DNA of 62,926 bases from positions 1 to 62,926 of the forward strand of contig NZ_JAGQCY010000017.1 of assembly GCF_024346455.1 (NCBI RefSeq), written 5' to 3'. Source of the stretch: Cyanobium sp. Aljojuca 7A6 (lineage in GTDB: Bacteria; Cyanobacteriota; Cyanobacteriia; PCC-6307; Cyanobiaceae). The position numbers and the translations under genes were made by a program. A model generated the notes under the pieces. The model was given only the letters and a program-made list of their open reading frames with translations, was not told the origin of the DNA and searched no databases. Shown here piece by piece: positions 41,115-55,368 of this stretch. The first letter of the stretch is position 1; the number at the start of each line of letters is the position of its first letter.

Positions 41115-41710
41115 GCGGCCTGCGGGCCTGCCTGCTCAGTGGCGGCGCCAGCCGCCGCATGGGCACGGACAAGGCCCTGCTGCCCCATCCCGCCGGGGGC
41201 ACCTGGCTGGAGTTCCACCTGGCCCAGCTGGCGGCCTTGCCGCTGCCGATCACCCTGGTCAGTCATCACCGGGCCCACCACGCCCTGGTCCAGTCCCTGC
41301 GGGACGGGCTGGGAGAGGCGATCACCGTCCTGGAGGAGCCGCCACCGCGGGAAGGGCCGCTGCTGGCCCTCGACCGGTTGATGCAGCACCACCCCCGCCA
41401 GGACCTGCTGCTCTGCCCGGTGGACATGCCCTGGCTGGAGACCGCCGCCCTCCAGGCCCTGGTGGCTGCCGCTATCTCTTCAGGCTCCGCGGCCATCCAC
41501 CTGGCCCACGACGGCCGGCGGCTGCAGCCGCTGCTGGGGGTCTACCCGGCCCACGCCAGCCGCTGCCAGGGGCTGCGTGCCTTCACGGCGGCGGGCGGCC
41601 GGCGGCTGCAGGATTGGCTGGCCGGAGAAGAGGTGGTGGCGGTGCTGCTGCCGCCGACGGGCCTGCGCAATGCCAACAGACCCGACGACACCACCGGCCT
41701 GTGGCCCTAG
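41111..41710 (+). CDS. mobA: molybdenum cofactor guanylyltransferase
   Basis: A 199-residue nucleotidyltransferase. ACLLSGGASRRMGTDKALL is the GTP-binding signature, and LLCPVDMPWLE carries the metal-binding Asp. It converts Moco to the bis-MGD form used by NarB and FdhF-type enzymes. It starts at GTG 41111 overlapping the narM stop (GTGA). It lies 10 bases upstream of moaA. Confidence 0.92.
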   Translation: MSGLRACLLSGGASRRMGTDKALLPHPAGGTWLEFHLAQLAALPLPITLVSHHRAHHALVQSLRDGLGEAITVLEEPPPREGPLLALDRLMQHHPRQDLLLCPVDMPWLETAALQALVAAAISSGSAAIHLAHDGRRLQPLLGVYPAHASRCQGLRAFTAAGGRRLQDWLAGEEVVAVLLPPTGLRNANRPDDTTGLWP

Positions 41711-41720
41711 CTTTCCTGCC

Positions 41721-42770
41721 ATGGCGGAGCGTCCCCTGGATCTGCATGGCCGGCCCCTGGGGGTGCTGCGGCTGTCGCTCACGGCCCGCTGCAACCTGGC
41801 CTGCCCCTACTGCTGCCCCGATGTCGAGGACGCGCCCGACCTGCTGACCCTGCCGGAACGGCTGGCCCTGGTGGAGACCACCGTGGGCCTGGGGGTGCAT
41901 ACCTTGCGCCTCACCGGCGGCGAGCCCCTGCTGCACCGGCAGCTGGAGGCGCTGATCGCGGCCCTGCAGCCGCTGCGGCGGCGTGACCCCAACGATCCCC
42001 GCGGCGTCTTGCGGGAGATCGCCCTCACCAGCAACGGCGTGCTGCTCAGTGCCGAGCGGGCCCGGCAGCTGAAGGCGGCGGGCCTCGACCGGATCACCCT
42101 CAGCCTCGATGGCACCGACGGGGCCAGCGTGGCCCGCATGGCCGGCCTGGGGGGGGCGGCCGCCGGTGGTGCTGTGCTGGAGAAGGTGCTGGCGGCGATC
42201 CGGCACGCCAGAGAGGCCGGCTTCGATCCGGCCCGCGGCGCGCTGAAGCTGAACGCGGTGATCACCCGCACCGGCAATGCCGACCAGCTGCTGCCCCTGG
42301 CGGCCCTGGCCCGGCAGCAGGGGCTGGAGCTGCGCCTGATCGAATTCATGGACGTGGGTAATCGCAACGGCTGGGCGCCGGAGCAGGTGCTGCCGGCGGC
42401 CGAGATGGTGGCCGGCATCGGGGCGGCCTGGCCGCTGGAGCCGGTGGGGCGCGCACCCCACGGCACCGCCGGCCGCTGGCGCTACCAGGATGGGGGCGGC
42501 CTCCTGGCGGTGGTGGCCTCGATCACGGCGCCCTTCTGCGGCGACTGCAACCGGCTGCGGATCACCGCCGACGGGGTGGCCTACAGCTGCCTGTTCGCTG
42601 CCACCGGCACCGACCTGAAACCCTGGCTGCGGCCCCGGCCCGAGTCGGCCCGGCTGCAGGAGGCGCTGGAAAGTTTGTGGCGGGCCCGGCGCGACCGCTG
42701 GAGCGAGGAGCGCCAGGAAGCGGCCGACCAGCGGCCGGCACCAGCGGAGATGGCCTACCTGGGGGGCTGA
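41721..42770 (+). CDS. moaA: GTP 3',8-cyclase MoaA
   Basis: A 349-residue radical SAM enzyme, first step of Moco synthesis. The N-terminal cluster is in SLTARCNLACPYCCPD and the C-terminal cluster in APFCGDCNRLRITADGVAYS CLF (split here). TLRLTGGEPLLH and the conserved C-terminal Gly-Gly (AYLGG) are present, the latter essential in characterised MoaA. It overlaps the convergent molybdoenzyme gene by 16 bases. Confidence 0.93.
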   Translation: MAERPLDLHGRPLGVLRLSLTARCNLACPYCCPDVEDAPDLLTLPERLALVETTVGLGVHTLRLTGGEPLLHRQLEALIAALQPLRRRDPNDPRGVLREIALTSNGVLLSAERARQLKAAGLDRITLSLDGTDGASVARMAGLGGAAAGGAVLEKVLAAIRHAREAGFDPARGALKLNAVITRTGNADQLLPLAALARQQGLELRLIEFMDVGNRNGWAPEQVLPAAEMVAGIGAAWPLEPVGRAPHGTAGRWRYQDGGGLLAVVASITAPFCGDCNRLRITADGVAYSCLFAATGTDLKPWLRPRPESARLQEALESLWRARRDRWSEERQEAADQRPAPAEMAYLGG

Positions 42771-45049
42771 GCGGCTCCGGGCGCTGAAGCCAGCGCCCCC
42801 CGCACCAGCACCGGCACCCGCTTGAAGGCCGGTGTGCCGCAGCGGGGGTCGATGATGGCCTTCATGATCACGTTCACCTCCGGGTAGAACATCAGCGCCG
42901 CCCCCTCGCGGATCTCGCCGGGAATGATCTCGACGCCCTCCAGGGTGCCCGCCTCCCCCTGCACCGTCACCCGCTGATGGGCCGCCAGACCGCAGCGCCG
43001 CAGGTCGGCGCGGTTCATCAGGATCGTGTGGCGGTGGGGCATGCCCCGGTAGCTGTCGCCGGCCTTGTAGACGACGGTGTTGTGCTGGCCGTAGCTGCGG
43101 GCCGTGATCAGGGCCAGCACCAGGCCGGTTTCCCCGGGCCCGAGGCCGCCGAAGTGCTCCGCCTCCGGCAGCGACAGTTCCGGCAGGGGGGTGGGCGCCA
43201 TCCGGGCCCGGCCGCTGGGGGTGGGGAAGGTCGGGGTGTCGAACAGGCGCCCCTCGACGCTGAACTCCTGCCGGGTGGCGTCGATGCGGGCGATCGGGCC
43301 GTAGCCGGGCACGGTGCGGCCGATCAGTTCCCGCACGTAGGACGGATCCTGCAGCCGCCCCCAGTCGATCGGATCGCTGCCCATCCGCCGCCGGGCCAGT
43401 TCGGCCAGGAACGCCACCTCGCTGATCAGGTCGGCGCCGCGCAGGTGGGTGGAGCCAGGCTCGTTGAGGCGCACGTAGTTGTTGCCCGATTCGGTGGTGG
43501 TGCGGTGCGGCGTCTCGAATCGGTTGAACACTGGCAGCACCAGGGTCTGGCGGGCGGCCAGGCCGTGGAAATGGCCCTGGTTGGGCTTGGTGGCCAGATA
43601 CAGGATCGTGTCGATGCGGCCCAGGGCGCGTTTGGCCTCGCCGCTGTCGGGGTTGGCGCCCCAGAGGTTGCCCCCCAGGCACAGCAGGCTGTCGATCCGG
43701 CCGGCATCGGCCGCCGCGATCAGGGCGCGGGTGTCGTAGCCGGGCACCCGGCTCAGGGGCCGGCCCAGCAGCTGCTCGAGGGCCTGCTGCATCTCCGAGC
43801 GCAGCTTGACGGTGACCCCCATCGAGCCGAAGCCCTGCACGTTGGAGTGGCCCCGGATCGGCATGGTGCCGGCCCCCGGACGGCCCACGTTGCCGCTGAG
43901 CAGGGCGGTGTTGGCGATCGCCTGCACGTTGTCGATGCCGTTGGCGTGGTGGGTGATGCCCATCGCCCAGGCGAACACCACCCCCCGGGCGCGGGCGATC
44001 ACGGTGGCGCTGTGCTCCAGTTCCTGGCGGCTGAGGCCGCAGGTGTTGGTGATCGCCTCCCAGGAGGTGCTCTCCAGCTGCGCCAGCAGCGCCTCCCAGC
44101 CCTCGGCATGGGCAGCCAGAAAGTCGCGCTTGACGGCGCCGGCCTCCAGCAGGGCCTTCTGCAGCCCCAGGAACACGGCCGTGTCGCTGCCGGGCACCGG
44201 CTGCAGGAACAGCGAGGCGATCTCCGAGCCCGCCAGCATCGAGCGGATCGGGAAGGCGGGGGAGCCGAACTTCAGCAGCCCCACCTCGATCACCGGGTTG
44301 ATCACGATCACCGTGCCGCCCCGCTGGCGGAGCTTGATCAGCTCGTTCATCAGCCGTGGGTGGTTGGCCGGGGCGTTGGAGCCCACCAGCACCACACAAT
44401 CCGCCTGCTGCAGGCTCTCCAGGCTCACCATCGAGGTGCCGGAGCCGAAGATGGCATTGAGCCCCACGGTGGAGGGGGCGTGGCAGAGGTCGGAGCAGTC
44501 GGCCAGGTTGTTGGAGCCCATGGCCCGCAGCAGCAGCTGCAGCAGGTAGGCCGCCTCGTTGGAGGAGCGCCCCGAGCTGTAGGAGGCCACCCGCTCCGGC
44601 GGGCGCCGGAAGGCGGCCTCGGCGATGGCGAACACGTCGTCCCAGCCGATGCGCTCGTAGTGGCTGCGGCCGTCGCGCAGCAGCAGGGGGTGGCTGAGGC
44701 GGCCGAGGCGGTCGGCCTCCATCGAGCAGAGCTGCTGGAGGTCCACCAGGCTGCGGCGGCCGAACACCCCCTCGCTCACCGCCGGCTGCAGCTCGGCCAT
44801 GATCGCCTCGACGCTCTTGAGGCAGCGCTGCAGCGGCTCCCCCAGCTCGTCGACGAAGCCTCCGTGCTGGCCGCCGGTGCCCCAGGCGCAGGAGAGGCAG
44901 GCGCTCTTGTGGTTGAGGGTCTGCCAGAGCTTCGGGCCCCGGGGGGTCAGGGTGGCGCGGGCCCAGCCCTCGATCAGGGGCCAGCCGCCGCCCTGGCCGG
45001 GGGTGGCCGGCTCTGGACGGGGTGCAGCTTCGGGGGCTCCAGATTCCAC
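42755..45049 (-). CDS. FdhF/YdeP-family molybdopterin oxidoreductase
   Basis: A 764-residue protein. Features are KSACLSCAWGTGGQHGGFVD near the N-terminus, ASYSSGRSSNEAAYLLQL, NLADCSDLCHAPSTVGLNA, VVLVGSNAPANHPRLMNELI, WAMGITHHANGIDNVQAI and PIRGHSNVQGFGSMG. These fit the YdeP branch of the DMSO reductase superfamily. YdeP proteins are linked to acid or stress resistance but their substrate is unknown. Only one N-terminal CxxC-like cysteine pair is visible, so a classical 4Fe-4S cluster is doubtful. It shares its genome position with narM-mobA-moaA. Confidence 0.86.
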   Translation of the reverse strand: MESGAPEAAPRPEPATPGQGGGWPLIEGWARATLTPRGPKLWQTLNHKSACLSCAWGTGGQHGGFVDELGEPLQRCLKSVEAIMAELQPAVSEGVFGRRSLVDLQQLCSMEADRLGRLSHPLLLRDGRSHYERIGWDDVFAIAEAAFRRPPERVASYSSGRSSNEAAYLLQLLLRAMGSNNLADCSDLCHAPSTVGLNAIFGSGTSMVSLESLQQADCVVLVGSNAPANHPRLMNELIKLRQRGGTVIVINPVIEVGLLKFGSPAFPIRSMLAGSEIASLFLQPVPGSDTAVFLGLQKALLEAGAVKRDFLAAHAEGWEALLAQLESTSWEAITNTCGLSRQELEHSATVIARARGVVFAWAMGITHHANGIDNVQAIANTALLSGNVGRPGAGTMPIRGHSNVQGFGSMGVTVKLRSEMQQALEQLLGRPLSRVPGYDTRALIAAADAGRIDSLLCLGGNLWGANPDSGEAKRALGRIDTILYLATKPNQGHFHGLAARQTLVLPVFNRFETPHRTTTESGNNYVRLNEPGSTHLRGADLISEVAFLAELARRRMGSDPIDWGRLQDPSYVRELIGRTVPGYGPIARIDATRQEFSVEGRLFDTPTFPTPSGRARMAPTPLPELSLPEAEHFGGLGPGETGLVLALITARSYGQHNTVVYKAGDSYRGMPHRHTILMNRADLRRCGLAAHQRVTVQGEAGTLEGVEIIPGEIREGAALMFYPEVNVIMKAIIDPRCGTPAFKRVPVLVRGALASAPGAAQPPR

Positions 45050-46888: not shown

Positions 46889-48559
46889 ATGAACGATCCC
46901 TCCTCCAACGGGCCAGGCCTCAGCCGGCGTGAGGCCCTGCAGGCCGGCGCCCTTTCCGCCCTCGGTCTGCTGGCGGCGGGAGCGGGGCCCGCCGCAGCGG
47001 CGGAGCCGGCCGCCGCCGTTGTTGGCCAGGGCGCCCAGAAGGGCCTCGGCGACAAGCTGGCGCCGGACCATGGCGTGCGCGTCACCGATCGACCCAAGGA
47101 TTACGTCACACCCAAGGGGCTCAAGGTTGACCGCGAGATCATCAATTTCAGCGACATCCCTTTCCAGCTCAATGGCTACACTTTGGGCCGGCACATCGTG
47201 GTGATGCCCCAGAAGATGGGCGGCGGTGTGAACCTGATTGACCTCGGCAGCGGCCGGGCGCTGGCCTCGCTGTGGTACTGGAACTACGGGGATTACAACC
47301 CCATCAGCCACCACATCCAGGCTTTTCCAAGCTCCAATCCTTACCAGGAGTTCGAGTTCATCAACAGCTGCCAGGGCGGTATGAATTCGCTCATCTATGG
47401 CATGCCGACGGCGGTGACGGATCCGCCGCCTGGTTTCAACATGTACCGGGTTCGCTACAACGGCGATGTCCTGGAGCTGGAGGAAAATATCGCCGAGACC
47501 ACGGGACTGGGTCTGGGTGTTCACACCACCATCCGTCCCTCCGATGCCAAGAGTTACTGCATCTCCGATGGCCAGAAGGACATCTTCGCCTGGTTTGATC
47601 GTGCCTCCACCCGCGTGCTGCAGGCGTTCCGTTACGACTGGCAGGGCAACTCCCCGGAGCTGGCGGACTGCTGGACCGGTGGCGGCACCCTGCTGATCAG
47701 CCGTATCAAGCCAGACCCTACGACCGGACTGTTTGATCTGCGTGGCACCAAGGGCCTCAAGATCAACTGGGAAATGGTGCCGATGGGTGAGCTGTTCGTC
47801 CCCGAGGGTCAGATCCCCGGCCCCAACGTGCGGGCCCTCACGGGTGCCGATGCCTTCGTCTGGCACCCCGATGGCCGCTACGGTGCGGAGATCATCCGCA
47901 TGCTCGGCGGCTGCGTTGTCCACGACAGCCAAAACGGCATGGTCCCCGTGGCCTATTGCGCCTTCCCCAGTCAGTCGCCCGACACCTACACGGTGGAGCA
48001 GGTGGATAGGGACACCTGGAAAGTAGTGATCGATCGGGTGTACTCCCCGGGTCATGAACTTGGCTTCTCACCGGATGGCAACAACCTTGTGATGATGAAC
48101 AACGGGCTGGAGAACAGCGTCGGGATTTTTGACAGCTCCGATCCCGACCCCAGCCAGTGGCGCAAGATCCGGCAGATCATCGATCCCACCTGGGGCAAGC
48201 GCTATCCCAGCCCCTTCCACATGGCTTTTACACCCGACAGCAAGAAGATGTACGTGGTGGTGCTGAACCCGGCCCCGGGCCGCAGCGGCATCATGGTGGT
48301 GGATACGGCCACCTGGACGCCGATCAAGGAGCTGCAGAACATCACCCAGGACATGCAGTCCTGCACGGTCACGCCTGACGGCCAATTCCTGCTGGTGGCC
48401 GTCGGTGGCTTCCAGCGTTACGCCTCCGGCATCTTCGTGCTCGACACGGCCAAGGATGAGCCGGTGGGTTTCATCCCCAATCCAGGTGGCCACCACGACC
48501 TCACCTTGGTGCCCACCAGCGTGGAGCAACTGCGCTTCTCCCGCTCCTGTGCGATGTGA
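46889..48559 (+). CDS. Tat-exported beta-propeller protein, NosZ/thiocyanate-dehydrogenase-like
   Basis: A 556-residue protein. LSRREALQAGALSALGLLAA then AAAAE is a Tat-type signal. The mature part is a propeller with repeats such as HELGFSPDGNNLVMMNN, FHMAFTPDSKKMYVVV and CTVTPDGQFLLVAV. Candidate metal ligands are Lys109, His141/His142 (NPISHHIQAF), His212, Glu295, Asp321, His389, His444 and His535/His536 (GGHHDLTL). From memory this order and spacing resemble the tri-copper site of bacterial thiocyanate dehydrogenase, a NosZ-type propeller; one expected His near 488-492 is replaced by a DMQSC stretch. A periplasmic copper oxidoreductase is therefore inferred, substrate unknown. It is coupled to the permease gene by a GTGA overlap. 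Confidence 0.6.
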   Translation: MNDPSSNGPGLSRREALQAGALSALGLLAAGAGPAAAAEPAAAVVGQGAQKGLGDKLAPDHGVRVTDRPKDYVTPKGLKVDREIINFSDIPFQLNGYTLGRHIVVMPQKMGGGVNLIDLGSGRALASLWYWNYGDYNPISHHIQAFPSSNPYQEFEFINSCQGGMNSLIYGMPTAVTDPPPGFNMYRVRYNGDVLELEENIAETTGLGLGVHTTIRPSDAKSYCISDGQKDIFAWFDRASTRVLQAFRYDWQGNSPELADCWTGGGTLLISRIKPDPTTGLFDLRGTKGLKINWEMVPMGELFVPEGQIPGPNVRALTGADAFVWHPDGRYGAEIIRMLGGCVVHDSQNGMVPVAYCAFPSQSPDTYTVEQVDRDTWKVVIDRVYSPGHELGFSPDGNNLVMMNNGLENSVGIFDSSDPDPSQWRKIRQIIDPTWGKRYPSPFHMAFTPDSKKMYVVVLNPAPGRSGIMVVDTATWTPIKELQNITQDMQSCTVTPDGQFLLVAVGGFQRYASGIFVLDTAKDEPVGFIPNPGGHHDLTLVPTSVEQLRFSRSCAM

Positions 48560-49767
48560 GCCGGCGTTTCCGCGCCCAGCTTCGGCTGATCGCCAGCAAT
48601 GTCACGCGCCGGTCCCTGCGGACGGGCCTGCTGGCTGGGGCCGTGGGCCTGGCCACGGGCCTCAGTTTTCTCACCGTGGTGCTGTTGGGGTCCCTGCAGC
48701 AGTCGCTGGAGGGCAGCTTTTCCAGGCTGGGCGCCGATCTGCTGGTGGTGCGGCAGGGAGCGACAGTGAACCTTACCCAGGCGCTCCTGGCCGTTGAGCC
48801 CGAGGCGCCTCCCCTGAGTTCCGCCATCCTGGAGCGGGCCGCGGCGATCGAGGGCCCGATCCGGATCAATCCCCAACGGGCCGTGCGCGGCAGCGGACGG
48901 TTGGCCCTGGAGGCGGGGCTGCCCTCCCCCACGGATCTGCCGCTCTACGGCATCGACCCCCAACGGGACAGCACGGTGATCCCCTGGCTGGAGAGCAGCC
49001 GGGGGATCGACTTTCAGGACGGCCAGGTGATCCTCGGCTCCCGCCGCCGCGGCCGCCTGGGGGATCGCCTGTCCCTGCTGGGCCAGACCTTCCGGATCCA
49101 CGGCCGCCTCGCCTCCACCGGCATCCCCTCCCATGAACAGGGCCTGTTCTTCACTCTGGACGATCTGGAGCGGCTTGTGCCCAGTGACAGCCCGGCCACG
49201 CTCGGGGTGAACGGGCTGCTGGTGCAGGCGCCGCAGGGGATGGCGATCGAACAGCTGCGCTTCAGCCTGCTGGCCCGTCTGGAGGATGTGCAGGTGGTGG
49301 GTGGCCGCACCCTGTTCGCCATGGTGCGACAGGCCGGTGCCTCAATGGCGACCCTGCTGGTCCTGCTCAGCGCCATCCTGCTGCTCTGTTTCGCCCTGCT
49401 GCTGACGCTCATGTACGCCGGCATCGCCTCCGAACGCCGCCGGGAGCTTGGGCTGCTGCTCAGCCTGGGGGCCCTCCCCAGCGAGGTGCTGGGGCTGATG
49501 GTGGGAGAGGCGAGCCTGGTCTGCGGCGGCGGTGGCGGTCTCGGCCTGGTGGTTGCTGCCCTGGTCGGCCCGCCCGTCCATGCGCTGCTGGGGGATCGGT
49601 TGGCGGCCAGCGGCATGGCGTTCCCCTGGCCCGCCCTGGCGCCCCAGGCTGAGCTGGCAGCCGGGCTGTGGCTGCTGGTCACGGGCATCGGTGCCCTGGC
49701 GGCGGCCCTGGCGATGCTGCCCGTGCTGCGCCTCGATGCCCTCGTGCTGGTGCAGGGCGATGACTGA
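48556..49767 (+). CDS. FtsX/MacB-type ABC permease
   Basis: A 403-residue protein with one N-terminal helix (TGLLAGAVGLATGLSFLTVV), a periplasmic domain of about 210 residues, and three C-terminal helices (LLVLLSAILLLCFALLLTL, GGGGGLGLVVAALVG and LWLLVTGIGALAAALAM). This is the type VII/MacB-LolC topology used for lipoprotein or mechanotransmission export. GTG 48556 overlaps the propeller stop; the end overlaps the ATPase start by 8 bases. It likely handles or assembles the upstream protein. Confidence 0.85.
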   Translation: MSRRFRAQLRLIASNVTRRSLRTGLLAGAVGLATGLSFLTVVLLGSLQQSLEGSFSRLGADLLVVRQGATVNLTQALLAVEPEAPPLSSAILERAAAIEGPIRINPQRAVRGSGRLALEAGLPSPTDLPLYGIDPQRDSTVIPWLESSRGIDFQDGQVILGSRRRGRLGDRLSLLGQTFRIHGRLASTGIPSHEQGLFFTLDDLERLVPSDSPATLGVNGLLVQAPQGMAIEQLRFSLLARLEDVQVVGGRTLFAMVRQAGASMATLLVLLSAILLLCFALLLTLMYAGIASERRRELGLLLSLGALPSEVLGLMVGEASLVCGGGGGLGLVVAALVGPPVHALLGDRLAASGMAFPWPALAPQAELAAGLWLLVTGIGALAAALAMLPVLRLDALVLVQGDD

Positions 49768-51097
49768 GCCCCTGCTGCGGGCCGAAGGGTTGCAGCGCTG
49801 GTTCGGTAATGCCGGGGTGCGTCAGGCCAGCCTGCAGCTGGCGGCGGGCGAGCGGGTGGCGATCCTGGGCCGCTCGGGATCGGGCAAGTCGACCCTGCTG
49901 GCCATGCTGGCGGGCCTCAGCCGGCCGGACGCGGGCAGGATCGAACTGCGGATCGGCGTTGGGGGCGCTGGCCCCATCGATCTCTGGAGCCTGCCTGCGG
50001 CTGAGCGCTGTCGCCTGCGGCGGGGGCCGGTGGGGTTTGTGAGTCAGTTCACCAGCCTGCTGCCCACCCTCTCGACCCTGGAGAACCTGCTGCTTCCGGG
50101 CGAGCTGGAGGGCCGCCGCAGCGCCACCGAACTGTTGGCCGATGCGGAGCACTGGCTGGAGGCCGTCGGGTTGAGCCATCTCCGGGACAGGCGGCCGGGC
50201 CAGCTCTCTGGGGGTGAGATCCGGCGCGCCATCCTGGCCCGTGCCCTGGTGAACCGGCCCAACCTGCTGCTCGCTGACGAACCCACCAGCAACCTCGATG
50301 GCTGCAGTGAGACAGAGATCGTGGCCCTGCTGGAATCCCTCTGCGCCAGCAGCGGCGCAGCCCTGCTGATGGTGACCCACAGCGAGGCCCTGGCCCGGCG
50401 CTGCGACCGCTGGCTCGAGCTGGAGGCCGGCACCCTGCGGGATCCCGCCGCCGCGGCCGAGCCGCCCTTGCCGTCCGGCTTGGGTGGGACCGCCGAGGCC
50501 CATCCCACGCGCCGCCGCCTGCTGGCCGGGGCCCTGGCGGGCGGGATGTCCCTGGTGGGGGGCACGGTGTTCTGGCAATGGCGCCAGCAGCAGCAGCGCA
50601 CCGCCAGGATCCGCCGCGACCGGCTGCAGCGACTGGCCTTCAGTGGCCTTTCCTCTGAACTCGTTGCGGTGGAACGAACAGGACCTGAGCGTTATCTGGG
50701 CACGCTCGCCGTCGAGAATCTCGAGGTCAGCCAGTCGCTGTACCTGCTGCCCCTCGACGTGCAGCTCTACATCCAGCAGGGCTCACGCTGGAATCCCTTT
50801 CCGGCCCACTGGAGTGACAGCCAACGCCAGGTGCTGGCGGTGGAGGGCTTGCGGCCGTTGCACTTCGAATTTTCCGACCCCCCCTCGAGCCACACCGAAC
50901 TGGTGCCTGGATACATGCATGTCCGCATCGACGTGACCTATGCCGTTGCCGATCGCCCTGACCCCGAGCTGATGCCGGTGGAGCGGCGCGATTCGTTCTT
51001 TGTCCATCTCCTCCCGCCGCTGCCGGACGCCGAGAAGGTCGCCCGCAACGGTTTCCCCGGCGAGCCGCCCCTCTATATCCCGATGCCGCCACATTGA
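49760..51097 (+). CDS. ABC ATPase fused to a membrane-anchored extracytoplasmic domain
   Basis: A 445-residue protein. Residues 1-235 are a MacB/LolD-type ATPase: Walker A GRSGSGKST, QFTSLLPTLSTLENLLLPGE, signature LSGGEIRRAILARAL, Walker B LLLADEPTSNLDG and H-loop MVTHSEALA. After a Pro/Ala linker come Arg250-252 and a transmembrane helix (LLAGALAGGMSLVGGTVFWQ) followed by about 165 residues that must lie outside the inner membrane, rich in Trp/Tyr/Pro and unlike any domain I recognise. Such a C-terminal fusion is unusual for this ATPase class. It is coupled to the permease by an 8-base overlap. Confidence 0.85.
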   Translation: MTEPLLRAEGLQRWFGNAGVRQASLQLAAGERVAILGRSGSGKSTLLAMLAGLSRPDAGRIELRIGVGGAGPIDLWSLPAAERCRLRRGPVGFVSQFTSLLPTLSTLENLLLPGELEGRRSATELLADAEHWLEAVGLSHLRDRRPGQLSGGEIRRAILARALVNRPNLLLADEPTSNLDGCSETEIVALLESLCASSGAALLMVTHSEALARRCDRWLELEAGTLRDPAAAAEPPLPSGLGGTAEAHPTRRRLLAGALAGGMSLVGGTVFWQWRQQQQRTARIRRDRLQRLAFSGLSSELVAVERTGPERYLGTLAVENLEVSQSLYLLPLDVQLYIQQGSRWNPFPAHWSDSQRQVLAVEGLRPLHFEFSDPPSSHTELVPGYMHVRIDVTYAVADRPDPELMPVERRDSFFVHLLPPLPDAEKVARNGFPGEPPLYIPMPPH

Positions 51098-53431: not shown

Positions 53432-53965
53432 ATGACCACCCCCGCCCGTGCCGCCGCCGGACCGACGACCGGGTTTCTGGAGGAATCCCCGGGCAACCGC
53501 TCCTGCATGCGGTTGATGTGTCTGCTGGCCCTGGTGGCGTCGATCGCTTTCGCCGCGGTCACGATGATGCGCAGCGCGCCGCTGGTGACCAGGGATTCGG
53601 GGGGTCGGGAGTCGATCTCCTATCCGCCCAGGGATGACACCGGGATGGTCATCAGCTTCGCCTTCCTGCTGGCCGCCTTCGCCCCCAAAGTGGTGCAGAA
53701 GTTCGCTGAGCAGCACCTTGGGGAGCTGAAGAGCTCCCGCCTGCGCGAACGGCTGCTCGGTTTGGGCCCCTCCGCTGGGCCGTTGGCTGCCACTGCCACC
53801 CCAACGGAGGATCCCCGCCTGCGTCAGCTCCTGGAGGAGGTGGAGCGCCTGCGTGCCGAGATCGAGCGCAGCCGCACCCCGATTCAGGTGAGCGCGGCCA
53901 CCCCCGTGGCCCCGCCGGCGGCCCTGACCCCCCTGGAGCGGATCCGCCTGAGCGGAAGCCTCTGA
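53432..53965 (+). CDS. holin-like two-helix membrane protein
   Basis: A 177-residue protein not assigned to a named family. Two hydrophobic helices ([17 protein letters not shown] and [17 protein letters not shown]) flank a short polar loop; the C-terminus is a charged coiled coil ([18 protein letters not shown]) with a Pro/Ala tail. Small size, two helices and coupling (TGATG overlap) to a lysozyme-containing gene suggest a holin-like or endolysin-export role, as in phage lysis modules. This is inference; a plain membrane anchor is equally possible. Confidence 0.5.
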
Positions 53966-55368
53966 TGCCCACCATCACCGCCCGCCAGGACGCGGGACTC
54001 AGCCCCAGCCCCGCCGCCGCCGATGCCGATTCCTATGTGGCCGCCGGCGCCCGCATCGCCGTGGCCTGGGTGCGGCCGGCCCCCGGTACGGACCTGGCGA
54101 TCGTGCGGCTGGCGGGGCCCTACACCTGTCCGGGCGCCACGGTGCCGCTGCCGGATGGCGAGCAGCGCTATCTCAACCCCGAGCGTTTCAACATTCCTGA
54201 TGAGGCCTGGCTGGGTGTTTCAGCCGAGGGTCCGCTTCCCCCCGAGGTGGCCCAGCTCAATCACCACTACGAGGGCTGCCGGCTCCAGGCCTACCCCGAC
54301 CCCCGCACCGGCGGCGCACCGATCACGATCGGCTGGGGCAGCACCTTCTATCAGGACGGTTCCCCGATCCGGCTGGGGGACGTGATCACCCAGGCGCAGG
54401 CCGACGCGCTTTACGAACACAACTGCCGCGAGAAGTTCTGGACGGTGCTCGTGGCCACGATTCCCTTCTGGGCGGAGATGGGGGATCGGCAGCGGGCCGC
54501 CCTGTGCAGCTTCGCTTACAACAACGGCGCCCATTTCCATGGCGATGGGTACCACGACACGCTGGATCGCCACCTGCGGGATCGCCGCTGGGGGGCCGTG
54601 CCCGGTGCACTGATGCTGTACCGCAATCCCGGTGAGACGGTGGAGGTGGGGCTGGGCCGCCGCCGCCGGGCCGAGGGGCTCGTGTGGAGCGGAATGCAGC
54701 CCGCCGTCGCCTGCGCCCAGGCGGAGCGGGAGATTCGCACTCCTGCCGATTGCGAAGCCTGGGAGCAGCATCTGAAGCGGGAGGCTGACGGTTCGGCTGC
54801 CCCTGCCGCCAGATCCACAACGGCGCCAGCCAAGGGGGCCAGCCTCCTGCCCGGTTTGGTGGGTCCCCAGAAGACCCCCCAGGACTTCGGCTTCAGTGGC
54901 TCCGACAGCCATGTGGTCGTCAACGACGCCAATCAGACAGCCAAGGCCTTCGATGCGGAGGGCCGGTTGCTCTGGGAGATCCCGGCGCTGGCCCGCGGCC
55001 AGGGGCGGGAGAACCAGTGGCAGGACACCTCCACCGACACACCGCCGGGGGTCTATCGCATCGCCCAGAAGGTCTACCGGGACTACGAGCAGGATCCCAG
55101 CCCCACCTACTCCGCCGACCGCCGCAGCTATGGCTGGTACAGCTTCGATCTGGAGGATCTGGAGATGCAGGAACGGCGGTTTGGCCGGTCCGGGATCATG
55201 GTGCACGGTGGCGGCACCGCCTGCGGCTGGCCCGGGGCCTGGGCGCCGTATCAGCCCCTGCATTCCACCCTCGGCTGCGTACGCCTCCACAACCAGGATC
55301 TGCGCGACAAGCTGCTGCCGCTGGTGGAACAGGGCACGGTCTACGTGTCGGTGTACCAGGAGGCCTGA
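53965..55368 (+). CDS. GH24 lysozyme-L,D-transpeptidase fusion
   Basis: A 467-residue protein. Residues 95-250 are a T4-type lysozyme: Glu103 in HHYEGCRLQAYPD, Asp112, then ITIGWGSTFYQDG, the E-D-T pattern of GH24, with FAYNNGAHFHG later. Residues 295-467 are a YkuD-type L,D-transpeptidase: MVHGGGTACGWPGAWAP and LHSTLGCVRLHNQ with nucleophile Cys438. One chain could thus both cut glycan strands and form or break 3-3 peptide crosslinks. No signal peptide is seen, which fits export by the holin-like neighbour. A phage origin for the lysozyme half is plausible. Confidence 0.82.
   Translation: MPTITARQDAGLSPSPAAADADSYVAAGARIAVAWVRPAPGTDLAIVRLAGPYTCPGATVPLPDGEQRYLNPERFNIPDEAWLGVSAEGPLPPEVAQLNHHYEGCRLQAYPDPRTGGAPITIGWGSTFYQDGSPIRLGDVITQAQADALYEHNCREKFWTVLVATIPFWAEMGDRQRAALCSFAYNNGAHFHGDGYHDTLDRHLRDRRWGAVPGALMLYRNPGETVEVGLGRRRRAEGLVWSGMQPAVACAQAEREIRTPADCEAWEQHLKREADGSAAPAARSTTAPAKGASLLPGLVGPQKTPQDFGFSGSDSHVVVNDANQTAKAFDAEGRLLWEIPALARGQGRENQWQDTSTDTPPGVYRIAQKVYRDYEQDPSPTYSADRRSYGWYSFDLEDLEMQERRFGRSGIMVHGGGTACGWPGAWAPYQPLHSTLGCVRLHNQDLRDKLLPLVEQGTVYVSVYQEA

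Follow-up and report, generated by a model that had tools for sequence, protein, structure and literature searches.

Thiocyanate dehydrogenase (TcDH) oxidises a small anion at an unusual three-copper centre, and its reaction and cytochrome partner have been described (PMC9456337). In Thioalkalivibrio, genes of an ATP-binding cassette (ABC) system lie directly downstream of the TcDH gene (PMC5328954, PMC5744179). The present work deals with a related three-gene unit from a cyanobacterium, Cyanobium sp. Aljojuca 7A6 (assembly GCF_024346455.1, contig NZ_JAGQCY010000017.1, positions 1 to 62,926); this whole stretch of 62,926 nucleotides (nt) is called the window. Judged by sequence and gene context, the unit would encode, with a probability of about 55%, a periplasmic copper oxidoreductase from a branch of the TcDH family in which glutamine (Gln) replaces an active-site histidine, together with the machine that makes this enzyme active.

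The Thioalkalivibrio loci hold two permease/ATPase pairs, a membrane-anchored hypothetical protein (G372_RS0106345, PMC5744179), a hypothetical protein with a twin-arginine translocation (Tat) signal and a two-component system (PMC5744179, PMC5328954). On thiocyanate, T. thiocyanoxidans upregulated all four ABC genes adjacent to TcDH (log2 4.54 to 6.75), and the exact function of the transporter in these operons was said to need biochemical study (PMC5744179). Thiocyanate loci of Thiohalobacter and Guyparkeria have CusB-type neighbours (PMC6504805), proteomics of a Thiohalobacter that degrades thiocyanate showed abundant TcDH (PMC6934394), and a TcDH-type "thiocyanate desulfurase" (33.7% identity to 5F75) was proposed for Afipia from a thiocyanate reactor (PMC8061750). 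A further point of comparison is NosZ, a Tat-exported enzyme served by periplasmic helpers, the CuZ site of which needs NosFY together with NosD and NosL (PMC7558416).

Propeller gene and Gln branch

Three overlapping genes on the plus strand form a compact unit (46889-51097, overlaps of 4 and 8 nt), as the translations confirm for an earlier reading of the bare sequence (the original prediction). Its features are:

46889..48559, plus strand: propeller gene P0002 of the TcDH family, Gln type (556 aa; phmmer, Foldseek and VIA matches to TcDH)
46889..47005 (end approximate), plus strand: Tat-type signal region SRREALQAGALSALGLLAAG..., by eye from the translation; predicted export and cleavage
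48356..48358, plus strand: codon of Gln490, in the place of His482 of TcDH (alignment to TcDH and branch members)
48556..49767, plus strand: FtsX/MacB-type permease gene P0001 (403 aa, GTG start), with the 4-nt overlap with the propeller gene
49760..51097, plus strand: gene P0003 for an ATPase with an anchored C-terminal domain (445 aa), with the 8-nt overlap with the permease gene
50519..50575, plus strand: likely membrane anchor of the fused ATPase (about residues 254-272, RRR before it; hydropathy)
50576..51094, plus strand: predicted beta-sandwich domain (C-terminal domain, CTD) with an invariant His and a C-terminal Met-Pro-Pro-His (AlphaFold2 (AF2) model, invariant columns)

By sequence and modelled fold, the propeller is unmistakably a homologue of TcDH, beyond chance. 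It was matched by phmmer to nine distinct TcDH sequences in the PDB (E 3.8e-137 to 1.6e-129), the next-best matches being other propellers (E 2.5e-4 and 9.7e-4). Searching with the AF2 model by using Foldseek returned TcDH chains in all of the first 20 rows (TMt 0.88-0.91), after which E fell from 1.8e-48 to 1.7e-11; VIA gave Z 50.6 to 8q9x (root-mean-square deviation (rmsd) 2.7 over 454 residues) and Z 49.6 to 5f75, the best row outside TcDH having Z 32.5. Identity to the two PDB TcDH rows compared was 47% and 45%. The enzymes of T. paradoxus (5f75, 5oex) and Pelomicrobium methylotrophicum (8q9x) agree with the propeller in fold, in the Tat-type signal and in 12 of 13 site residues. The signal was recognised by eye as a Tat-type SRREALQ motif followed by a hydrophobic stretch. 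Homology to solved enzymes thereby supports the predicted TcDH-type propeller with its Tat signal and conserved active site. NosZ, named in the same breath, is an analogy only: it was not among the 11 hits in the PDB at E<=1, and membership of its family was rejected. It is also missing from the 50 structural rows (Foldseek and VIA) shown for the propeller, which by itself proves nothing.

The active site of T. paradoxus TcDH has been listed as Lys103, His135, His136, Gln156, His206, Glu288, Asp314, His381, His437, His482, His528, Asp529 and Arg544, residues that hold copper and water or give the cavity its shape (PMC6504805, Fig. 4 legend). The aligned equivalents in the propeller are Lys109, His141, His142, Gln162, His212, Glu295, Asp321, His389, His444, Gln490, His536, Asp537 and Arg552; 12 of the 13 are thus kept, and the sole change is His482 to Gln490. 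By alignment to the solved TcDH, these residues would converge in the propeller tunnel. The residues put forward in the original prediction (Lys109, His141/142, His212, Glu295, Asp321, His389, His444 and His535/536) are all present, and all except His535 fall on the published list; Gln162, Asp537 and Arg552 complete it, and the change at Gln490 had been overlooked. The propeller lacks the full TcDH set that includes His482, which we take to be a direct copper ligand, and because this residue is replaced the propeller is treated as a member of a sister branch and not as TcDH proper.

Gln occupies position 490 in each of the 44 distinct branch members with coverage there, the window included. 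A recount of all loci gave 62 rows, 47 of them distinct (44 Gln, two His and one without coverage of the position). The first alignment had comprised 39 loci, of which 38 covered position 490, all with Gln, and one (L038) ended before it; six further distinct Gln-type loci came from later searches. His stands at the equivalent position in PDB entries 5oex and 8q9x and in two genome loci, L056/L072 (44% identity) and L066/L073 (33% identity, the most distant found), so that the His-type references (wild-type T. paradoxus, Pelomicrobium and these two loci) are four, a small number. Since 37 loci were found with a cyanobacterial query, Gln-type members were favoured, and the ratio of His to Gln is no census. 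At the other 12 site positions every locus with coverage keeps the residue, with gaps only in L037 and L038; a family dominated by homologues without the listed residues, the outcome feared at the outset, was not seen in the loci aligned.

In a maximum-likelihood tree of 21 rows, a branch supported at 99/96 separates the 17 Gln rows from the rest. After column 490 had been masked and the longest-branch row (L073) removed, the support of the Gln clade was 100/100; both trees carry long-branch warnings, and the row of 6sji, with its engineered Gln, was counted as His-type by origin. A further 21 columns set the branch apart: each is invariant across the 17 Gln rows, and none of the three close His-type rows shares its residue. 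They include Gly111 and Gly113 after Lys109, Asn159 and Ser160 before Gln162, Met296 after Glu295, and Leu459 where His-type rows have Trp. On the strength of alignment and trees, this is a separate Gln-containing branch within the TcDH family; the replacement of His482 separates it from the His-type enzymes and leaves a role in thiocyanate oxidation open.

The same substitution has been made in the laboratory: PDB entries 6sji (His482Gln), 8yu5 and 8yu6 (His447Gln) are titled as engineered mutants of the same residue in the same site as Gln490. Those are laboratory changes in His-type enzymes, whereas here a natural Gln is fixed across the whole branch. TcDH and its ABC neighbours were known already; among the matches listed from the open-access literature, outside which subscription papers mostly fall, no description was found of the Gln branch, the CTD or, as had been suspected, a cyanobacterial member. 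The branch is not mentioned in the available parts of PMC8061750 and PMC6934394.

ABC genes and C-terminal domain

The position of permease and ATPase genes downstream of the propeller gene is as in Thioalkalivibrio, and the arrangement as such is therefore not new, contrary to the original prediction (PMC5328954, PMC5744179). The locus differs from TcDH operons in having one permease/ATPase pair where Thioalkalivibrio has two (PMC5744179) and, within the propeller, in Gln for His482 and the other branch-specific changes. The permease matched PF02687 (FtsX) with 38.1 bits, over the cut-off of 25.5, and PF12704 (MacB_PCD) with 26.5 bits, slightly below the cut-off of 27. The ATPase matched PF00005 (E 2.6e-32) and has Walker A, LSGGE and LLADEP motifs; its best NCBIfam model was LolD (TIGR02211; 172.2 bits, under the cut-off of 307.75). 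These are the permease and ATPase families of LolCDE and MacB, from which the unit differs in that its ATPase remains under the LolD cut-off and is accompanied, in the same chain or as a neighbour, by an anchored beta-sandwich that ends in Met-Pro-Pro-His.

The third gene, taken at first for an ATPase gene, does encode an ABC ATPase domain, fused, however, to an anchored beta-sandwich: P0003 consists of a LolD-like ATPase (about residues 1-235), RRR, the anchor (about residues 254-272) and the CTD of 173 residues. Mean hydropathy of the anchor is 1.54 over 19 residues, below the 1.6 used in a first scan; the region is clearly hydrophobic by eye in unfused homologues. In the AF2 model the CTD is a beta-sandwich with a mean predicted local distance difference test score (pLDDT) of 93.1 (69 in the last block). 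Among 22 homologues it has 20 invariant columns, including His115 and Met170-Pro171-Pro172-His173. Candidate families were sought for it and discarded: Pfam on P0003 gave ATPase-type models only, and a structure search gave generic beta-sandwiches and no assignment (best match TMEM106B luminal domain, Z 8.9, rmsd 2.6 over 111 residues). The CTD shares one frame with the ATPase Walker A in seven of 40 CTD frames, those of six cyanobacterial-type loci and of L051, and not in the other 33; the fusion links anchored arm and ABC complex.

NosZ has a propeller fold, and its combination with NosDFY and NosL resembles the unit in the way it may work, as a Tat-type propeller, here putatively a copper protein, beside an ABC complex. 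The two differ in that no sequence match was found at E<=1, the ABC genes are FtsX/LolD-like and the CTD is a predicted beta-sandwich.

Of the first 40 loci scanned, all but L003 hold the enzyme, and beside its gene the permease was found in 37, the ATPase in 36 and the CTD in 33. Five of the six loci without a CTD have cut ends there (L001, L002, L011, L021, L038); the real exception is L036 (= L052) from Nitrospirota, on a 16.4-kb contig. A CTD profile found the domain, among the best candidates scored, in two of 398 Pseudomonadota and five of 251 genomes of the window's family, the same seven genomes as the enzyme, that is, in 7/7 genomes with the enzyme and 0/642 without. The window's genome and the Reyranella centre G580 entered these seven by choice and not by sampling, and several cyanobacterial CTDs belong to the profile itself. 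The notion of a dedicated ABC unit has held, since the module travels with the propeller gene across loci and surveyed genomes.

Methylocella tundrae plasmid NZ_LR536451 carries, in this order, genes for the enzyme, an ABC permease, an ABC ATP-binding protein and the CTD; enzyme and CTD are annotated as hypothetical proteins, and the CTD ends in Met-Pro-Pro-His. This four-gene form (L079) stands on a plasmid of 304 kb. The His-type locus L073 contains two CusB/HlyD genes and in this resembles Thiohalobacter and Guyparkeria (PMC6504805). L072 ends soon after the apparent start of a second permease (by eye), so that a CTD is neither visible nor excludable at that locus.

Proposed function and alternatives

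In the proposed mechanism, the propeller would be exported folded through the Tat pathway, as its signal suggests. A copper cluster, predicted from the likeness to TcDH, would sit in the propeller tunnel, lined by the 12 conserved residues, with Gln490 replacing one His of the three-copper site. The FtsX-type permease and the LolD-like ATPase would form an ABC complex that uses ATP in the cytoplasm, and the anchored beta-sandwich with its Met-Pro-Pro-His tail may deliver or position copper for the enzyme; by analogy, the task of complex and CTD would be like that of NosFY with NosD and NosL. The enzyme would oxidise a small sulfur/nitrogen anion by two electrons, as TcDH does, and the electrons would pass to a soluble acceptor, for which cytochrome c6 and plastocyanin are candidates. 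As substrate, thiocyanate comes first among single candidates, at clearly less than even odds, and a different substrate or copper state, given the changed residue and second shell, appears about as likely. A bolder version is offered tentatively and held to be somewhat doubtful: that the Gln branch, passed among picocyanobacteria, Reyranella-type and methanotrophic alphaproteobacteria and others, performs a different small-molecule oxidation and has its own ATP-driven copper-insertion machine with a beta-sandwich arm.

Several observations weigh against the reading as copper enzyme plus activating machine. The AF2 model of the propeller, built on an alignment of 18 rows, has a moderate mean pLDDT of 72.0, with values below 50 near the site (132-136, 164-181, 291-308, 438-440 and 553-556), and the distant His-type L073 shares the Gln-branch residue in four of the 21 branch-specific columns. 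The case for the CTD in copper handling consists of one His and the Met/His tail, in a fold that matches generic beta-sandwiches. Across 43 homologues of the permease, conservation of at least 95% is reached by a single His (41 of 43) and by no Met or Cys, so passage of copper through the permease is not indicated. On the 16.4-kb contig of the Nitrospirota Gln-type gene (L036/L052) no permease or CTD was recognised, even with profiles; the ABC unit therefore does not seem strictly required. Absences of the CTD are not exhaustive, because in many genomes the co-occurrence searches scored the best first-look candidates only (for example, 8 of 28 and 14 of 23). The permease tree leaves the placement of L051 and L072 unsettled.

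Among the alternatives, the one that survives best, not far below an even chance, is that enzymes of the Gln branch carry out another reaction, with a different small sulfur/nitrogen anion or gas as substrate and with two coppers or a modified three-copper centre in the site. Gln490 is branch-wide and accompanied by coordinated changes nearby, and the branch forms a separate clade with unlike gene neighbourhoods and hosts; the other 12 listed site residues are nevertheless unchanged, and no neighbouring gene points to another substrate.

An ordinary thiocyanate dehydrogenase that tolerates Gln490, and destroys or exploits thiocyanate made, for instance, from cyanide by rhodanese, is conceivable and on balance rather doubtful. 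In its favour are the 45-47% identity to two TcDH rows, the 12 of 13 conserved site residues and the TcDH-plus-ABC context known from Thioalkalivibrio, to which may be added the extra rhodaneses of freshwater picocyanobacteria (PMC9361551) and the letters SCN in the contig names of two of the 37 loci (L017 and L028), as in the thiocyanate-reactor contigs of PMC8061750. Yet His is retained even in the most distant locus (L066/L073), and the CusB-type neighbours of that His-type locus resemble those of described thiocyanate users (PMC6504805). A sigma-54 system, copper genes (copCD) and a flavocytochrome (fccAB), all described at thiocyanate loci, were not seen among the ten neighbouring open reading frames (ORFs) scanned; three of these ORFs had no family match. 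Searches of the window's genome and of G464 gave no cyanase; cyanase (PF02560) does not follow the enzyme, occurring in three of five genomes with it and 11 of 20 others, and the cyanate pathway was dropped as support for thiocyanate use. Absence of cyanase is common in freshwater picocyanobacteria, since cyanate hydratase occurs in 38 of 67 (PMC9361551).

A third proposal concerns the ABC unit, which could remove a sulfur product, lipid or lipoprotein from membrane or periplasm in the manner of LolCDE in place of loading copper, and can be combined with either view of the substrate. The ATPase is indeed closest to LolD among the NCBIfam models and the permease has an FtsX domain; the proposal is judged unlikely in view of a LolD score far under the cut-off, a CTD that was found only alongside the enzyme in the genomes surveyed and the invariance of its Met/His tail. 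That the propeller binds or scavenges copper and catalyses nothing, as its rare and patchy presence and one changed site residue might suggest, is very improbable, since Lys109, Glu295 and Arg552, presumably non-ligand or catalytic residues, are kept in cyanobacterial, alphaproteobacterial, Nitrospirota and G771 members, which speaks for catalysis.

If the reading as copper enzyme plus activating machine is right, the Gln branch is the natural counterpart of the mutant engineered by crystallographers, and the role of the His482/Gln490 residue becomes testable by comparing natural enzymes. A small ABC unit that accompanied only this enzyme in the surveyed genomes would give a handle on how complex copper sites are filled, and the cyanobacterial fusion of ATPase and arm would name a partner for the transporter of TcDH operons (PMC5744179). 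The branch may have been overlooked because enzyme and CTD are labelled as hypothetical proteins, as in the one annotated record (NZ_LR536451). Should the enzyme act on thiocyanate, the trait would reach oxygenic phototrophs.

Distribution, apparent mobility and neighbouring genes

The unit was taken at first for a cyanobacterial system; it is present in picocyanobacteria but is mostly alphaproteobacterial (33 of 37 loci by record label) and rare in cyanobacteria. Counting the window's own genome, the full-length enzyme was found in two of 386 genomes of a phylum-wide cyanobacterial sample and the enzyme in five of 251 genomes of the window's family. With the centre genome included in each case, it occurred in two of 398 Pseudomonadota, full-length in two of 148 genomes from the phylum of the Nitrospirota locus, and as substantial matches in four of 99 genomes from the family of G771 (three Gln, one His). 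Excluded from these counts were weak matches in G300 (19.5 bits), in seven genomes (18-29 bits) and in five (20-22.5 bits), as well as a second partial match in G583 (28.8 bits).

The unit appears to move as a block. The flanking genes are unlike between the window, L004 and the group of L053, L054 and L055, plasmid copies occur in two Methylocella tundrae records, and the permease tree groups the cyanobacterial rows in a clade of their own (support 100/100), with the alphaproteobacterial rows in a second (83/88). No neighbour outside the three genes was found at every cyanobacterial locus compared.

At L051 (G771), transposase-type genes of the IS110, IS21-like and DDE families lie around the unit, consistent with movement. 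L005, binned as "bacterium TMED88", has a cyanobacterial-type unit 95% identical to that of L053, with flanking genes in common, and is probably a picocyanobacterial contig placed in the wrong bin. In alphaproteobacterial Gln-type loci an upstream gene for a protein of about 241 aa is conserved (L019, 6808-7530, minus strand; L079, 10755-11477, plus strand). The two proteins are 41% identical (E 7e-42), with two hydrophobic stretches and a J-domain-like C-terminal part by eye; the HPD motif is present in L079 and not in L019, and Pfam gave a weak Pam16 match only.

Two further observations were made in the window outside the three-gene unit. A molybdopterin oxidoreductase gene (42755-45049, minus strand) adjoins a gene with radical SAM and Mob_synth_C domains (MoaA type; 41577-42770, plus strand), the pair spanning 41577-45049. 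An ORF at 53965-55368 (plus strand) joins Phage_lysozyme (PF00959) and YkuD L,D-transpeptidase (PF03734) domains.

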